DNA from: Paraglaciecola hydrolytica
Lineage (GTDB): Bacteria; Pseudomonadota; Gammaproteobacteria; Enterobacterales; Alteromonadaceae
Assembly (NCBI RefSeq): GCF_001565895.1
Contig: NZ_LSNE01000001.1
Location: 62,001 to 126,000 of the forward strand
Direction: 5' to 3'
Length of the DNA stretch: 64,000 bases
Below, piece after piece: positions 2,478 through 62,114 of the stretch (position 1 is the first letter of the stretch; every line of letters begins with the position of its first letter). The notes below the pieces were generated by a model, which saw only the letters and a program-made list of their open reading frames with translations, was not told where the DNA came from and searched no databases. The translations under genes and the position numbers were made by a program.

Positions 2478-2725
2478 ACGCTATGTCGATTAATTTACCC
2501 TAGTTAAAAGGATGTAAGGTTTTTCACATCATTGACTCTGATGTGATTTGTGGCCAGCTTTGGCTGGCCAATTTTTAAGATATTGAAAGCAGGGAATTTT
2601 AAGTTTACTCGGTTGGTCTATAGTGTTAACCGTGTTAGATAGAAGACAAACAGACATAATTCAGTTAAGGTTCAGTCTTATTTGTTTATGCTGTATTTCG
2701 TTTGAAAACGAGTGAGGAGCAAGAC

Positions 2726-3253
2726 ATGAAAAAGTTATTAGTACCTCTTATGACCAGTTCGTTATTACTGTGTACAACTCAAGTATTGAGTCAGGCACAA
2801 GTCGAAATCAACTGGGAAAACCCAGAGAAATATCGTGACGTCAGACCGACGATGGAATCTCGGGTTAAATTTCGTGAACATACCTTTGAGCAGTTGCTGG
2901 AATATTTGCAAAAATTAGCGGCAAAATTGCCCGACGATCAAAAGCTATCATTAAACGTTACTAACTTGGATCTTGCGGGTCAAGTTTGGCCTGCGTCCTT
3001 TGTTGGTTTTGGTCATGGTGCTAGCGATGTACGGGTGATTAAGAATATGGATATTCCACGTATCAGTTTCACTTATAAGTTAGTGAATACCACAGGTGAG
3101 TTGATTCAGGAAGGTGATGTTGAGTTAAAAGACATGGCCTTTATGGATAGAGCGAATCGTTTTTTCTCCAGTGAGTCACTACGTTATGAAAAAAACATGC
3201 TGAAAGACTGGTTTGACGATGAGTTTCCTGAATTAATGGTAAAAACCAACTGA
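2726..3253 (+). CDS. DUF3016 family periplasmic protein
   Basis: Start at ATG 2726 is favoured by the GAGGAGC ribosome-binding site just upstream and by the signal peptide that follows (MKKLLVPLMTSSLLLCTTQVLSQ). The mature part (VEINWENPEKYRDVRP, then FREHTFEQLLEYLQKLAAKL and a C-terminal YEKNMLKDWFDDEF) matches the DUF3016 pattern, a small exported family frequent in Alteromonadales and Shewanella with no assigned function. It is followed by a rho-independent terminator and therefore is probably the last or only gene of its transcript. Confidence 0.8.
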   Translation: MKKLLVPLMTSSLLLCTTQVLSQAQVEINWENPEKYRDVRPTMESRVKFREHTFEQLLEYLQKLAAKLPDDQKLSLNVTNLDLAGQVWPASFVGFGHGASDVRVIKNMDIPRISFTYKLVNTTGELIQEGDVELKDMAFMDRANRFFSSESLRYEKNMLKDWFDDEFPELMVKTN

Positions 3254-3266
3254 AATCAATCATAAT

Positions 3267-3292
3267 AAAAAACCGCTTTTGGCGGTTTTTTT
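3267..3292 (+). terminator. Rho-independent terminator (possibly bidirectional)
   Basis: A-tract, stem CCGC/GCGG extended by A:T pairs, 5-nt loop, then a run of seven T. It lies between the convergent DUF3016 and diguanylate cyclase genes; the A-tract on the left arm would also serve the minus strand. Confidence 0.85.
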
Positions 3293-3314: not shown

Positions 3315-4970
3315 TTATTGGGTTGTGTCATCACTGCAAAATTGATTTTTACCATGGTCTTTGGCGACATAAAGCGCCTTATCAGCTCTGCTGAGTAATT
3401 TATCGGGTAGAAGGACTAAGTCAGGGCCAGATACAGCAATACCCATGCTGATAGTAATAAACGGAGTTACTGTACTGTACTCATGTTTGACCTTGGCCTC
3501 ACTTATACTGTGCATAATGTTGTTTGCAATGTCTTTCGCGCCGGCTAAGTTTGTATCCGGCAGTATGCAAACAAACTCTTCGCCCCCGTAACGCGCCACA
3601 AAATCTGATGATCGTTTCAGCGCATGTTTAATGCAAGTGGCGATTATTTTTAAACATTCATCACCCGCGGCGTGGCCGTAGTTGTCGTTGTAAAGTTTAA
3701 AACAATCAATATCCATTAATAAAATCGCCACGTGGGATTTTTTACGAATAGACAATTCAATATCGTGTAATAAACGTATGTCGAGTGCGCGGCGATTAGC
3801 GATGCCGGTTAAGCCGTCGGAAAGCGACATGTGCTCTAATTTGATTTGTTGTTCTTCTATGGTTTGAGTGAATAAATTAAACGTATTGGCGAGATCGGTT
3901 ATCTCATCATTGCCTTTGATCCTTGCAGTGATGTCATCACCTTTGATTTTACTTTTGACCAAGTTATTCAAAGACTGTAGGCGGATAATGACGTGTTTTT
4001 GGATAAACAATATCATCAGAACCAGCGATACAATACCGACTGTTAACACTAAACCAATCAAGGTAATTTCTTTGTTAGTGCGTTGTACGGTTTTGCTCAA
4101 CTGATCGGTGACTTTTTGCTCGGTTTCTTTCGCCGAGTATTCCAGTAAACGAGCAAAATCTTGGATTAGATTATGTACAAAATTCTCTCGACCAATCACT
4201 CGTCCATCTATACGTAATTGCATTATTTTTAAAGGCAGCAAACCTTCATCCTGCAAAATAAGTTGGGCTAGATTATTGGTTAATCTGAGTTTTTGATCTT
4301 GATGCTCTCCTCGTTCAGCGTATTTTTTGAGCACTTCTATGTCGTTATTAAATTGCCTGAACAACTGCCTGACTTCCTGTAGTCGGTTCATATTTAAGCT
4401 TCGATTAACACTGGTAATGGTTCTGGATAATTGCAAAGACCATTGATAATCAGCACCCAGCTGGGCGTTTTCTTGGAGTTGAGGCTCTAATGCCAATGCG
4501 ACGGCATGTAACTTATGAATGGCATTTTCTTTATCTTTAAGTTGCTGGTTTATCAGCAATTTCTGTTTTATTAAAGTCGTAAATTCACTGATTTCTAAGC
4601 TGATGATATCCAGTTGTAAATCAAGAAACTCATTGTGAAAACGCTTTTTCGAGATATTTTTCAGATAGTCTAAATATTCTGCAATATTTTGTTCAGCAAC
4701 ACGTTTAGCGGCTTCAGAGGTGGATTTAGATAATTGCTCGGTGGCTTCTAATAAACGTGATGATTGACCGTAAAGTTGGCTAGAGATCACTATATCGGGT
4801 AATGAATGTTCGGCCACATCATTAAACATGGCTTTAAAATCAAGCAAACTGCTATAGGTTAACCAGCACAGCAGCAGAAATAAGGCCAGAATAGTGCTAC
4901 CTGTCAGACTAAAAACCCTGATTAAAGAGACTCTTCTCGCCTGCATACCTTTTTGGCTAGTCGCCGTCAT
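3315..4970 (-). CDS. Membrane diguanylate cyclase (HAMP-GGDEF)
   Basis: Synthesises c-di-GMP from GTP. The order is TM1 (about residues 16-40), a largely helical periplasmic sensor of about 260 residues, TM2 (301-323), HAMP-like linker (324-376) and a GGDEF domain (about 380-546). The active-site signature is GGEEF at 462-466, and the inhibitory I-site RxxD is present at 453-456, five residues before it, so both catalysis and product feedback look intact. No EAL domain is present. Its ATG overlaps the stop of the upstream 5'-nucleotidase-like gene by 4 bp, so the two are translationally coupled and the periplasmic partner may feed the sensor. The ligand is unknown. Confidence 0.93.
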   Translation of the reverse strand: MTATSQKGMQARRVSLIRVFSLTGSTILALFLLLCWLTYSSLLDFKAMFNDVAEHSLPDIVISSQLYGQSSRLLEATEQLSKSTSEAAKRVAEQNIAEYLDYLKNISKKRFHNEFLDLQLDIISLEISEFTTLIKQKLLINQQLKDKENAIHKLHAVALALEPQLQENAQLGADYQWSLQLSRTITSVNRSLNMNRLQEVRQLFRQFNNDIEVLKKYAERGEHQDQKLRLTNNLAQLILQDEGLLPLKIMQLRIDGRVIGRENFVHNLIQDFARLLEYSAKETEQKVTDQLSKTVQRTNKEITLIGLVLTVGIVSLVLMILFIQKHVIIRLQSLNNLVKSKIKGDDITARIKGNDEITDLANTFNLFTQTIEEQQIKLEHMSLSDGLTGIANRRALDIRLLHDIELSIRKKSHVAILLMDIDCFKLYNDNYGHAAGDECLKIIATCIKHALKRSSDFVARYGGEEFVCILPDTNLAGAKDIANNIMHSISEAKVKHEYSTVTPFITISMGIAVSGPDLVLLPDKLLSRADKALYVAKDHGKNQFCSDDTTQ

Positions 4971-6484
4971 TGTTCCATTCTCACAATTCTTGACGTTAAC
5001 TTAGGGGTAATAGTTTGTTGTTTTTGGATGGCACGTATCACAATATCTGAAACCAAAGGCGTATTTTGGCTTAACACTTCTAGATTTTGTACATCATTAA
5101 ACGCAGTAAAACCATCTCCACCTTTCACGATATAGTCGGAGGTTGCAAGTTTATATTGTTGGTTGAGTTTAAGGGCTTTGCCATTAATTTGTACATTCTG
5201 CACTCGTTTGCCCACGGGCTGTTCAAGTGAGTAGCTGAAGCTCATCCCTGATACTTGTAAAAACCTTCCTTTGATGTCTTCGACTTGGCTAACCCCGTGT
5301 TCAAGTGCCGCCCACAGCTGTGCACCTCTGATTGATACCACTGACAAATGTGTTCTATAAGGTAGTTCACGAATGATATCGCCCCGAGTCAGGATACTAT
5401 TGGCCTGATAGTTTTTGTCACCACGCACAGATCCGCTATTAACCATGGCGATTTCAGCGTGAGCCGCTTCTTTTAAGGCATCAGCAATAAAATTACCAAA
5501 GGCGTTTTCTGCCGTTCTGATCAAGGTTTTTTGGCTGTTCATTGGCTGACTTAAGGTGCCGATGGGCTGGCTTAACAAACGGTTGAGTCGTCTTGTGTAT
5601 TCATCAATCAATATTGCCGTGGCCGTATGGTCTGGGTAAGTATTCAGATCTAAATTTAGCTCGTCAATACTAAGCTCTTTTGGAGAATTTTGTGGCCACG
5701 ACAGTTTTAAGACTAAGGTGGTTTTTATATCTGACAAGATATAACGTTTGGCTAATACCGCAGGTTTTTCACTATGCTCATCATGGGCTGTTGGCAATAT
5801 TCGCAGAGCAAAATCAATTTTCTTGGTATCAAGTAGAGCCTGATAATAATCTTTTTCTTGAGAGTAGAGCATGACAATTAAGTCTGCCCCTTGCTGCTCT
5901 AATTGTTTAATCTGTTGGTTGAGTAGAGCTTGGGGCTCCAATATCGAGATCCGCTCTAATAAATATTCCTGAACAACACTCTCGTCCAAGATGGAAATAA
6001 AACCCACACTTAAACCACCTTTATCAATAATGATATTGGTATTAATGCCTTCCATATTACTTTTTGTCAGCGGGTCATAAATGTTAGAGCTCACAAAAGG
6101 AAAGGCGGCTTCGTATGATCGTAAACTGAGTTCATCTTCAAAATAACTGAATTCACTTTTACCGACGGACATCAAATCGGGTTCAAGGGTATTAAGAATA
6201 TCGATAATATGAGAACCGCGATCTAAGCTCGACAATGAACTTGGGCCTAAACTTGAGCCACCAAAGACAAATAGATTTTGTTCATCTTCTTGTCTGGATT
6301 TTTCCAATAAACTAGCAAGTTTGGGATAGCTGCCCTTATTCGCCGGACCAATTTCTGGCATGTTAGAAGCAAAAACAAGAGTGAGGTGTTTTTGTTTTGC
6401 CGTTTGTGCGCTAAGCACTGTTGGCAAAAGCAGGAATAATGTGAAAAAGATCCAACGCGGCGTAAGTGGCATTAGTTGCAGCAT
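4967..6484 (-). CDS. 5'-nucleotidase-family periplasmic protein with degenerate metal site
   Basis: 505 residues with a signal peptide (cleavage near LSA-QT, residue 26). The C-terminal 5'-nucleotidase domain is well preserved (NAFGNFIADAL, MVNSGSVRGD at 348-356, SDYIVKGGDGFTAF at 449-462), which in UshA-type enzymes binds the nucleotide. The N-terminal metallophosphoesterase domain keeps the fold-like segments but not the metal ligands: the D-x-H motif reads SNM (40-42), the GD motif reads FGGSSLG (74-80), GNHEFD reads GKSEFSY (108-114), and the late His motifs are also replaced. Inferred to bind a nucleotide or related ligand without hydrolysing it. It overlaps the diguanylate cyclase gene by 4 bp. 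Confidence 0.8.
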   Translation of the reverse strand: MLQLMPLTPRWIFFTLFLLLPTVLSAQTAKQKHLTLVFASNMPEIGPANKGSYPKLASLLEKSRQEDEQNLFVFGGSSLGPSSLSSLDRGSHIIDILNTLEPDLMSVGKSEFSYFEDELSLRSYEAAFPFVSSNIYDPLTKSNMEGINTNIIIDKGGLSVGFISILDESVVQEYLLERISILEPQALLNQQIKQLEQQGADLIVMLYSQEKDYYQALLDTKKIDFALRILPTAHDEHSEKPAVLAKRYILSDIKTTLVLKLSWPQNSPKELSIDELNLDLNTYPDHTATAILIDEYTRRLNRLLSQPIGTLSQPMNSQKTLIRTAENAFGNFIADALKEAAHAEIAMVNSGSVRGDKNYQANSILTRGDIIRELPYRTHLSVVSIRGAQLWAALEHGVSQVEDIKGRFLQVSGMSFSYSLEQPVGKRVQNVQINGKALKLNQQYKLATSDYIVKGGDGFTAFNDVQNLEVLSQNTPLVSDIVIRAIQKQQTITPKLTSRIVRMEQ

Positions 6485-6522
6485 TAGGGCCCAGAGTATA
6501 AAAAGTGTTGAATAAGTGTACT

Positions 6523-6559
6523 AAAAAAATCGTGCTCAACACATAGTTAATGCACGATT
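6523..6559 (-). terminator. Rho-independent terminator of the pepA-holC-valS unit
   Basis: On the minus strand, AATCGTGC pairs with GCACGATT across a 16-nt loop, followed by a run of T (A-tract 6523-6529 on the plus strand). It lies just after the valS stop codon. Confidence 0.75.
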
Positions 6560-6600
6560 CTAGTTATTTACCAATAAAAAGGCGTTATATATCGCCCCTA

Positions 6601-9390
6601 CTACAGGGCCTCAATAGTGACCTTTTGTTCTTGCAGTTTACCTATTTGCATCGAAAAATCGGCTAACTTGGCTTGTTCTTTTTCAATGACATCGGCTGGC
6701 GCATTACTCACAAACTTTTCGTTAGCCAGTTTGCCTTGAGTGCGATCAAAGTCTTTTTGCAACTTATCTAAAGCCCTAGCAATACGTGCCAACTCAGCTT
6801 CTTTATTAATCAAACCAGCCATGGGGATCAGGATCTCCATTTCACCCACTAAAGCGGTGGCTGAGGCTGGCGCACTTTCGTCCGGTTCCAGTAACGTGAT
6901 ACCGTCGAGCCTAGCAATGGAGCCAAGGAAAGCTTTAGTTGTTTGCAGTCTTTGCCAATCTTTGGGACTGGCGTTGCGCAACAAGACACTCAGCGGTTTA
7001 CTCGGTGCGATGTCCATTTCGCCACGGATATTACGGATGCCCAGTACAAAACTCTTCATCCATTCGATGTCATCAAGTACTTGTCTGTCTAACAAGTTGG
7101 CATCTTGCTGAGGGAAAGTCTGCATCATGATGCTGTGCTGTTGTTCCGTGCTTAGTACCTTGCACAAAGGTGCCACTCGTTGCCAAATCTCTTCGGTGAT
7201 AAACGGCATAAAGGGATGCAAAATTCGTAGTAGGTTTTCCAGTACATTAACCAAGGTATGACGTGTACCACGCTTTTGCGCTGTAGTGCTGTGTTCAGAA
7301 TTTAAAATCGGTTTAGTCAATTCTAAATACCAGTCACAGAACTGATTCCAAGTGAACTCGTAAACGACTTGCGCAGCGATATCAAAACGATAATCAACTA
7401 AGGCTGTTTCGAATTCTTTTAGGGTCAGTTGTAAACGCGCCCAGATCCAGCGGTCAGCTAAGCTGAGTTCGAGTTCATCGCCACTTTGTGCTGCATGTAG
7501 CCCGTTGTCTTGATCTTCGGCATTCATCAATACAAAACGTGAAGCATTCCATAACTTGTTACAGAAGTTGCGATAACCCTCAACTCGTTTTACGTCGAAA
7601 TTGATATCACGGCTGGTGGATGCCATAGCAGCGAAGGTAAAACGCAAGGCATCTGTGCCATAGGCAGCAAAGCCTTCAGGATAACTTGCTTGTGTTAGTT
7701 TTGTGATTTTTTCTGCAAGCTTAGGCTGCATCATGCCCGAGGTGCGTTTAGCGACTAAAGCTTCTAGGCTAATACCGTCTATCAAATCAATAGGATCGAT
7801 AACATTACCTTTTGATTTAGACATTTTATCGCCATTTTCATCACGGATAAGGCCGGTAATATAAATTTCTTTGAAAGGGATTTTGCCAGTGAATTTTTTG
7901 GTCATCATGATCATTCTAGCTACCCAGAAGAAAATGATATCAAAACCAGTAACTAATACGGCGCTGGGTACAAAGGTGTTTAACTCTGGCGTTTGTTTTG
8001 GCCAACCCATGGTTGCAAAAGGCCACAAAGCCGATGAAAACCAGGTATCCAATACATCTTCGTCCTGACGTAAAGCCACATCGGCAGCAATATTATGTTT
8101 GGCACGTACTTCGGCTTCTGTGCGTCCGACAAATACTTGACCATTGGAGTCGTACCAAGCTGGAATGCGATGTCCCCACCACAATTGGCGCGAGATACAC
8201 CAATCTTGAATGTTGTTCATCCATTGGTAATAGGTTTTATCCCAGTTTTCTGGCACAAACTTTATTTCGCCGCTTTTCACTGCGTCGATAGCGGGTTTAG
8301 CTAATTCTTCAACCGCTACATACCATTGGTCAGTTAGATAAGGTTCGATCACGGCAGCAGAACGGTCGCCCCGCGGTACTTTAAGTTTGTGAGGTTCAAT
8401 TTTGACTAATACCCCAGCAGTCTCTAAATCAGCAACGATTTGTTTACGTGCCACAAAACGATCTAAACCTTGATACTGCTCTGGCGCCAGATTATTGATC
8501 TTGGCATCGTCAGTTAAGATGTTGATCACTTCTAAACTATGACGTTTACCCATTTCATAATCGTTAAAATCGTGGGCCGGGGTGATTTTTACACAGCCGG
8601 TACCAAATTTGGGATCCACATAGTCGTCGCTGATGATTGGAATTAAACGGCCAGTCAGAGGCAGTTTGATTGATTTACCGATCAAGGTTTGATAACGCGG
8701 GTCATCGGGATGCACGGCAACGGCAGTATCCCCTAACATGGTCTCGGGGCGAGTAGTGGCAACCACCAAAGATCCCGAACCATCTGCTAAGGGGTAACGG
8801 ATGTGCCACATAAAGCCATCTTCTTCCTCGTTGAGTACTTCGAGGTCAGATACGGCGGTGAGCAATACCGGATCCCAATTGACTAAACGTTTGCCACGGT
8901 AAATAAGTCCTTCTTCGTGCAAACGCACAAAAACTTCATTTACCGCTTCAGATAGGTCATCGTCCATCGTGAAAACCTCACGATCCCAATCGGGTGATGT
9001 ACCCAAACGGCGCATCTGTTGGGTAATGGTGCCACCTGATTCGGCTTTCCAGTCCCAGATTTTTTCCACAAAGGTCTCGCGGCCTAAATCATGGCGAGTT
9101 AAACCTTTAGCATTAAGCTGACGTTCGACCACCATTTGCGTGGCGATACCCGCGTGATCGGTACCACATTGCCATAGAGTATTGTCACCTTTCATGCGGT
9201 GGTAACGGGTGAGCGCATCCATGATGGTTTGTTGAAAACCATGGCCCATGTGCAGACTACCTGTCACATTGGGGGGAGGTAACAAAATACAATAAGGCTC
9301 GCCTTGACCGCTGGCTTTGAAATAGCCGCTTGCTTCCCACTGCTGGTAACACTGTTGCTCAATGTTTTGTGGGCTATAGGTTTTTTCCAT
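6601..9390 (-). CDS. valS: Valyl-tRNA synthetase
   Basis: Charges tRNA-Val; cytoplasmic class I synthetase. Start set at ATG 9388-9390 ([15 protein letters not shown]), the usual N-terminus of the family; the frame continues upstream without a credible start. The HIGH-type motif is HMGH at 47-50 after PPPNVTGSL, and the KMSKS loop is present ([11 protein letters not shown]). A C-terminal coiled-coil arm ([21 protein letters not shown]) is complete. The length of 929 residues is normal. It is 4 bp downstream of holC, matching the conserved pepA-holC-valS order of Gammaproteobacteria. Confidence 0.99.
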
Positions 9391-61229: not shown

Positions 61230-62114
61230 CTACTGCCCCCACTTCATCTCGCCCATAATGACTTTGGCACTTAATACTAAAATGTTGTCGCCGCCAATAT
61301 TTGGGTAGCTTGCTTGCATTTTGGCAATCAATTCACTTGAATTGCTTGAGGCTTTGGCAGCTGTTTCAAAGTTTTGGATGTACTGACGGGTAAAATTAAC
61401 CGCTTGAATCGTTAAGGGTTTGTTGCCCACTATATGCCCCGGGATCACAGTTGTAGGATGTAGCTGTTCGATAACATCGAGGGTTTTATACCAAAGATGA
61501 CGTGATTCAGGCGTTTGTGTGTCAGCTAAAAATACATGCATATTGCCAAATACCACCACGCCACCCAGCATCGTTTTGCTAGAAGGGATCCACACAAAGG
61601 TATGTTTTGGATCATGGCCATCAAGCCCGACAATTTTAACCTTCTCACCATCAACCATAAGGGTGTCGCCTTTAAGTACTTCAGGCACAACCAACTCTTG
61701 CGGTGCATTCTCTTTTAGAATTGGTCCCCAGTAGCTTTTTTTAGGTACCATTGAGGCAATAATATATTCTTGGGTTTTAGCGGATGAGACTACCTTGGCA
61801 TGAGGATACGCTGCAGTGATCACATCTAGCCCAAAATAATAATCAGGATCGCCATGACTAATGTAAATAGTAGTGAGTTTTTTGCCTGATTTTCTAATCA
61901 ACTCAACCACCGATTGGGCGTCATTACGCTGAAATTGTGCGTCAACTAAGATGGCTTCTGTTGGCCCAGTGATTAATACCGAGCTTACTGGAAATAGGCT
62001 TTTTTCTTGTGGATTAAACACAGAGGTTTCTAGTGTTGCACTGGTAGCGCTGGCGGATAAGGCGAGCATGGAGAACATTGTACCTGCCTGAACTAATTTG
62101 GATAAAAATGTCAT
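61230..62114 (-). CDS. Exported MBL-fold metallo-hydrolase
   Basis: 294 residues from ATG 62114 (AGGA upstream), with a signal peptide (cleavage near TSA-TL). Metallo-beta-lactamase fold, but the metal motif HxHxDH reads HGDPDY, so the second His is Asp and the last His is Tyr. The late His in VIPGHIVG and the GLDGHDPKHTF region remain. This variant motif occurs in a subgroup of periplasmic MBL proteins; activity is uncertain. Confidence 0.85.
   Translation of the reverse strand: MTFLSKLVQAGTMFSMLALSASATSATLETSVFNPQEKSLFPVSSVLITGPTEAILVDAQFQRNDAQSVVELIRKSGKKLTTIYISHGDPDYYFGLDVITAAYPHAKVVSSAKTQEYIIASMVPKKSYWGPILKENAPQELVVPEVLKGDTLMVDGEKVKIVGLDGHDPKHTFVWIPSSKTMLGGVVVFGNMHVFLADTQTPESRHLWYKTLDVIEQLHPTTVIPGHIVGNKPLTIQAVNFTRQYIQNFETAAKASSNSSELIAKMQASYPNIGGDNILVLSAKVIMGEMKWGQ

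Follow-up and report, generated by a model that had tools for sequence, protein, structure and literature searches.

The minus strand of Paraglaciecola hydrolytica contig NZ_LSNE01000001.1 carries, within positions 62,001 to 126,000 (a stretch of 64,000 nucleotides that was analysed as a whole and is called the window here), a gene for a nucleotidase-like protein that overlaps the gene for a membrane diguanylate cyclase (DGC). The arrangement raises the question of what a protein related to 5'-nucleotidases, but without their catalytic metal site, does beside an enzyme of cyclic di-GMP (c-di-GMP) signalling, a question of some weight since, to our knowledge, the signals of most membrane DGCs are unknown. 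The two proteins are likely to make up a periplasmic receptor that signals through c-di-GMP, in which the metal-less 5'-nucleotidase would serve as ligand-binding co-receptor for a TorS-type DGC. An initial annotation of the window had reported the two genes with a 4-bp overlap and proposed that extracellular nucleotides or similar ligands, bound by a pseudo-enzyme, tune c-di-GMP; both open reading frames (ORFs) and their overlap are confirmed at the coordinates collected in Table 1.

Metal site and pocket of the nucleotidase-like protein

The window protein looks exported, as its hydrophobic N-terminal helix (aa 9-25) resembles a Sec signal peptide. Its sole Pfam domain is 5_nucleotid_C (PF02872), matched at E 6e-41, and no metallophosphoesterase domain is matched up to E 1; the same combination was found in all 31 orthologs scanned (from 34 rows, three near-duplicates being omitted). 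The AlphaFold2 model of the whole protein, with a mean predicted local distance difference test (pLDDT) score of 84.8, was compared with the PDB by Foldseek, and the best 50 matches are all 5'-nucleotidases, CD73 and UshA among them, with a best E-value of 1.5e-38 and template modelling (TM) scores of 0.52-0.71 relative to the query. Because the model matches complete two-domain 5'-nucleotidases, the N-terminal nucleotidase domain is predicted to be still there, but altered.

The alteration is evident in the alignment with Escherichia coli UshA, where D41, H43, D84, N116, H217, H252 and Q254, which we take to be the seven metal ligands, are replaced by N, P, S, K, S, L and T, leaving none of the seven, and the catalytic H117 is replaced by serine. 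The initial annotation had held that all visible metal motifs of the phosphoesterase domain are replaced, which this alignment bears out, with no metal ligands recovered at shifted positions; the DxH motif is indeed lost, although its position aligns as N-M-P and not as S-N-M, a correction that leaves the conclusion unaffected.

The loss extends across the family. It was assessed in 65 non-identical orthologs, being 66 aligned rows minus L065 (CpdB itself) after removal of identical rows (91 proteins, 74 distinct, references included); overlapping species and near-identical rows remain, and the 65 do not represent as many independent events. No metal ligand is retained in 26 orthologs, one in 34 and two in 5, with D41 the ligand most often retained (31/65), and His117 is lost in every one. 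At position 109 of the GNHEF motif (UshA N116), lysine occurs in 61/65, and at position 110 (UshA H117) arginine occurs in 62/65, with serine in the window protein, so that NHEF has become KREF in most orthologs. The replacement residues are themselves conserved, and the changes at the metal site are therefore not drift. Around the former site, window residues such as S78, P81, D88, H92, P102, K109, E116 and E125 are conserved within the family and occur in at most two of 12 canonical-site relatives.

Ratios of nonsynonymous to synonymous substitution rates (dN/dS) of 0.05-0.22 for the nucleotidase gene (8 of 11 pairs with a value) and 0.05-0.12 for the cyclase gene (6 of 11) point to purifying selection on both, the values being rough, as saturated synonymous sites left 3 of 11 nucleotidase and 5 of 11 cyclase pairs without a value and several dS exceed 1. 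A tree of 44 rows splits 32 metal-less proteins from the 12 canonical-site relatives with support of 100/100, albeit with long-branch warnings, and this split suggests that the metal site was lost once.

The C-terminal pocket, by comparison, is largely kept. Window residues R323, R354, Y376, G406, Y451 and D457 correspond to UshA R379, R410, F429, G458, F498 and D504, respectively. The positions of R379, R410, G458 and D504, which together with R375 and N431 presumably have the pocket roles we ascribe to them in UshA, are identical in all 65 orthologs, and ten more distant metal-less rows keep R379, G458 and D504 in 10/10 and R410 in 9/10. The F429 position holds phenylalanine in 53 and tyrosine in 12 of the 65, and the F498 position tyrosine in 61 and phenylalanine in 4. 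The window protein has tyrosine at both stacking positions, the same as CpdB, whose tyrosines occupy the base-stacking positions according to the study that also describes the roles of UshA F429, F498 and H117 (PMC7922932). Retention of the C-terminal nucleotide-binding domain, as the initial annotation proposed, is thus supported both by the PF02872 match and by the kept pocket residues.

The cyclase and its periplasmic sensor

The DGC carries an intact GGEEF and I-site, as initially annotated, and the key residues of GGEEF and RxxD are invariant in the 29 DGCs aligned out of 34 rows (L012, L014, L017, L025 and L028 omitted). Across a larger set of 81 loci, GG[DE]EF and RxxD were both found at 79; of the remaining two, L047 reaches the end of its sequence stretch and the frame of L025 stops early. 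The cyclase frames of L025 and L028 are interrupted, by an early stop or by a match that continues in another frame; one of the two is a metagenome-assembled genome, and assembly errors are possible. The Pfam scan of the window DGC gave no EAL domain.

The large periplasmic domain that had been described for the cyclase is also present, spanning approximately residues 40-302, and it is predicted to be all-helical and of TorS type. In the AlphaFold2 model of the DGC (mean pLDDT 85.7, predicted TM score 0.47), the periplasmic part consists entirely of helices, with long ones among them. A Foldseek search with this model returned mostly GGDEF-domain structures among the best 50 matches, and the TorS sensor structures (3i9w, 3o1j) are not among the matches listed.

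The relationship to TorS emerges at the level of profiles. At E <=1, the family matched by the largest number of sensors is TorS_sensor_domain in Pfam (7/29, best E 2e-6) and TorS in NCBIfam (8/29, best E 4e-5). An hhalign comparison of the family sensor with Escherichia coli TorS scored 36, while controls (12 shuffles and one reversal) reached at most 17.8. Searches of the ORFs of three loci found true TorS proteins encoded beside TorT, with E-values of 4e-12 and 7e-12 for the whole-DGC profile and of 2e-9 and 3e-8 for the sensor profile, and the order-wide sensor search likewise reached two true TorS kinases beside TorT (E 1.2e-7 and 5.1e-7). Judged from these profiles, and for some members only, the DGC sensor appears to be a diverged TorS-type domain, newly recognised here. 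In TorS itself, the sensor is read together with periplasmic TorT, and movement of the second transmembrane helix (TM2) is tied to output (PMC8534201).

Pairing across genomes and layout of the locus

The nucleotidase search placed an ortholog in 49 of 246 genomes of the window's family at a cut-off of E <=1.6e-91, the next matches following at 8e-48 (L071) and 9e-20; at E 0.001 or better, 124 of the 246 genomes match. A search with the sensor alone returned 49 of 246 genomes, from 17 of 52 genera, and the set is identical. In all 49, the two matches share contig and strand, and the sensor match starts 105-234 bases beyond the nucleotidase match; neither gene is present at these cut-offs in the remaining 197, among them a genome from the genus to which the window belongs. 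The adjacency of the pair in relatives, proposed as a check by the initial annotation, is thereby established for the family. In a separate collection, the cyclase lies directly downstream at 33/33 loci (some of the same species, two identical). The L083 cyclase gave no tblastn match and was found by a profile search of a longer stretch.

Beyond the family, the wider order (394 genomes) yielded orthologs in nine more genomes from three other families at E 1e-110 or better, eight of which have an adjacent cyclase. In a sample of the class, the sensor was found in 2 of 369 genomes, both in the window's family and one being the window's genome itself. The surroundings vary: the pepA-holC-valS flank of the window is shared by 12 of 42 compared loci, and 30 of 42 have none of six tested neighbours, where flanks extended to at most 5 kb, some loci end at contig ends and absent neighbours may lie outside. 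The gene neighbourhood of the pair is therefore not fixed but of several kinds.

The pairing looks obligate. No intact unlinked copies were found in the family or order searches, apart from the divergent L071. The window genome has 65 GGDEF matches, of which this cyclase is the one that keeps such a partner, and one other, weak 5_nucleotid_C match, with no second strong one, and a canonical UshA or CpdB is not evident in it by the 5_nucleotid_C family search. L071 (482-1939), together with L154 (4338-5486, genome G215), represents a second nucleotidase that is likewise metal-less but divergent and has no cyclase; it was excluded from the ortholog counts. It is flanked upstream by a nucleosidase-like protein (PNP_UDP_1, probably exported) and downstream by an opposite-strand gene that presumably resembles purC, with no DGC nearby; the position beside a nucleosidase-like protein is a hint of nucleoside chemistry in this family. 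In two Aestuariibacter records, the pair is immediately preceded by another GGDEF-like gene (L009 3338-4888; L013 near 4051-4797).

Table 1. Features of the nucleotidase/DGC locus, given as positions of the window
Feature	Position	Strand	Details
Pseudo-5'-nucleotidase gene	4967..6484	(-)	505 aa; predicted two-domain 5'-nucleotidase fold without metal ligands
Membrane diguanylate cyclase gene	3315..4970	(-)	551 aa; TM1, helical periplasmic sensor, TM2, HAMP-like linker, GGDEF
4-bp overlap of both reading frames (ATGA)	4967..4970	(-)	ORF coordinates
Dead metal-site motif GKSEF replacing GNHEF	6149..6163	(-)	aa 108-112; alignment to UshA
5_nucleotid_C domain with kept pocket (R323, R354, Y376, G406, Y451, D457)	5096..5563	(-)	aa 308-463; Pfam and alignment
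All-helical periplasmic sensor domain, putatively TorS-type	4065..4853	(-)	~aa 40-302
I-site RxxD and active-site GGEEF (RSSDFVARYGGEEF)	3573..3614	(-)	aa 453-466
GGDEF catalytic domain	3339..3839	(-)	aa 378-544
Probable intrinsic terminator (hairpin and T-run) on the valS side of the pair	6523..6559	(-)	116-nt region folds with z -3.45
Terminator-like hairpin between the cyclase gene and the convergent DUF3016 gene	3267..3291	both ways	Terminator scan

Transcription proceeds from the nucleotidase-like gene to the DGC gene. With hairpins on both sides, the two genes probably form a transcription unit of their own. The hairpin on the valS side is absent from the 12 terminator-like sites of the terminator scan, which has another just after valS (6599-6578). 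The promoter scan gave 8 matches, against 11.0 expected in shuffles, and no promoter was called. The neighbouring genes in the window encode a beta-propeller protein (PF09826; 26-934), a DUF4397 protein (1035-2477) and a DUF3016 protein (2702-3253), the last of which lies beyond the pair in 10 of the 42 compared loci.

Receptor model and competing explanations

Known systems provide a frame for the pair. In TorT/TorS, which senses trimethylamine N-oxide, a periplasmic ligand-binding protein is likewise read by an all-helical membrane sensor, apparently of the same family, followed by HAMP; TorT, however, is a type I periplasmic binding protein acting on a kinase relay, whereas the window pair combines a predicted 5'-nucleotidase fold with GGDEF. 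The NspS/MbaA system of Vibrio cholerae similarly joins a periplasmic binding partner to a membrane c-di-GMP enzyme, but NspS binds polyamines and MbaA is a bifunctional GGDEF-EAL protein, while the window pair has a dead nucleotidase and GGDEF alone; neither a binding-protein domain nor EAL was found in the Pfam scan of the pair. NspS-MbaA is described as a polyamine receptor that sets c-di-GMP, with MbaA bifunctional and a sensor of cell lysis (PMC8967002, PMC10914755). With UshA, CpdB and CD73 the family shares the full-length two-domain fold suggested by the model, the C-terminal substrate pocket and apparent export, and differs by lacking the dimetal site and catalytic histidine, by its DGC partner and by forming its own clade. 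YfiR/YfiN also encodes a periplasmic regulator together with a HAMP-GGDEF cyclase, though YfiR is small and probably unrelated and the sensor domain probably differs. TorT/TorS and NspS/MbaA are the nearest in logic, the pair is best placed with binding-partner-gated c-di-GMP receptors, and its best reading by analogy would be a co-receptor of the TorT/TorS or NspS/MbaA kind with a dead 5'-nucleotidase in the role of the binding protein. A literature search, which left most subscription papers and all preprints outside, returned no title or abstract start describing such a pair.

A mechanism can be outlined on this basis. The exported 5'-nucleotidase, devoid of catalytic metals, would act as ligand-binding co-receptor, its C-terminal pocket of two aromatics, two arginines and an aspartate most likely binding a nucleotide or a nucleotide-containing molecule. 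Speculatively, the lysine and arginine of the KREF motif may take over from the lost metals and hold a phosphate by their positive charge, the window protein having serine in place of the arginine. Ligand binding would close the hinge, as UshA-type enzymes do for catalysis; in these, the open and the closed form are separated by a large rotation about the hinge (PMC8475336, PMC7922932). The TorS-type helical sensor of the DGC would then read the open or the closed form, much as TorS reads TorT, and TM2 and the HAMP-like linker would relay the signal to the GGDEF dimer. The analysis itself shows the lost metal-site residues, the kept pocket, the obligate pairing, purifying selection, the TorS-type sensor and the intact GGDEF motifs; complex formation, a nucleotide as ligand, hinge motion as the signal and any direction of the effect on c-di-GMP are inferred.

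Several observations weigh against this account. The window's own sensor matches neither the Pfam nor the NCBIfam TorS model, the PDB sequence search ranks the TorS sensor second (E 0.0087) behind a helical lectin repeat (E 1e-6), a coiled match that we take as an artefact of helix composition, and the hhalign probability for TorS is only about 53%, a weak relation. The pocket is not a copy of that of UshA, because the N431 position is not conserved (S in 30 and N in 22 of the 65 orthologs) and the window protein has threonine there and lysine for R375; moreover, the R323 position (UshA R379) is not universal in the 12 canonical-site relatives, which also have Q, Y or F there. A mirror-tree comparison of 58 loci gave no sensor-specific co-evolution, the nucleotidase correlating with the sensor at r 0.55 and with GGDEF at 0.76, and the partial correlation is 0.11, with sensor distances saturated. 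Among the more distant loci, the L130 sensor is too divergent for the order-wide sensor search, and in the L129 pair (genome G388; 3674-4543, 4554-6053) the partner keeps the transmembrane-sensor-transmembrane arrangement without HAMP or GGDEF, showing that cyclase output can be lost. The L130 partner cyclase (6137-8074) is itself divergent, with 645 aa, of which ~120 are additional and separate the HAMP-like region from GGDEF, and the L129 nucleotidase has lysine at the position of the UshA 410 arginine.

The replacement of N431 in 43 of 65 orthologs and the lysine for R375 in the window would also suit a co-receptor whose pocket has been retuned for a non-nucleotide ligand, for example a surface glycan or a metabolite carrying sulfate or phosphate, with the kept residues partly reflecting the fold; the family-specific conserved residues in the former metal-site region fit this as well. 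Such a ligand is conceivable but the less favoured possibility, as all 65 have the two arginines, the GGD aspartate and the two aromatic positions either unchanged or with conservative exchanges, and the tyrosine pair of the window protein equals the CpdB residues at the base-stacking positions. The same family-specific residues could instead form an interface, and obligate pairing would look identical if the periplasmic protein acted on the DGC independently of any ligand, activating or inhibiting it constitutively or stabilising it, in the manner of YfiR/YfiN. There would then be no obvious reason to keep the stacking and phosphate-binding positions in 65/65, which makes this arrangement rather improbable.

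An enzyme with changed chemistry, a hydrolase that is metal-independent or differently metallated and acts on the DGC through the level of its product or substrate, would agree with an altered site that is conserved and not drifting (K 61/65, R 62/65), and SoxB, a relative by weak NCBIfam matches, is an example of the fold with new chemistry. This is a poor prospect, since at most one of the seven ligands is left in 60/65 and His117 is lost in 65/65, and since the His117Ala variant of CpdB has next to no activity, kcat/KM on the two still-measurable substrates being reduced 5000- and 60-fold (PMC7922932). As for the two genes being co-inherited neighbours by coincidence, with no functional link, a single adjacency could well be chance in a genome with 65 GGDEF matches. 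Adjacency and co-occurrence in 49/49 genomes of 17 genera, in several neighbourhoods and in three other families too, leave this hardly any likelihood. Chance adjacency as such is ruled out by the 49/49 co-occurrence and the varied neighbourhoods.

The two-protein receptor is accordingly the preferred interpretation. The interpretation first given to the locus is supported in part: a functional pairing of metal-less nucleotidase and DGC is strongly supported by the 49/49 co-occurrence, the several neighbourhoods, purifying selection and the TorS-type sensor, and a nucleotide as the ligand is plausible, judged from the conserved pocket positions. The fullest scenario, possible though somewhat short of an even prospect, is a new class of receptor: an extracellular enzyme that hydrolysed nucleotides would have become, probably in a single conversion that preceded the spread over at least four families of the order, a non-catalytic periplasmic nucleotide co-receptor for a TorS-type DGC. 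It would let marine bacteria read nucleotides in solution, whether derived from lysis, viruses, algae or extracellular DNA, directly into c-di-GMP.

The pair is carried by marine bacteria related to Paraglaciecola and Alteromonas, and together its two proteins look like a receptor for extracellular nucleotides or similar compounds. The pocket of the dead enzyme can be read, which points to a class of ligands that could be tested for this conserved family of cyclases. If the interpretation is true, periplasmic enzymes, beyond the transport-type binding proteins, can turn into co-receptors, and, c-di-GMP being a biofilm signal, marine bacteria would gain a route from dissolved nucleotides, as a signal of lysis or bloom, to the biofilm switch.

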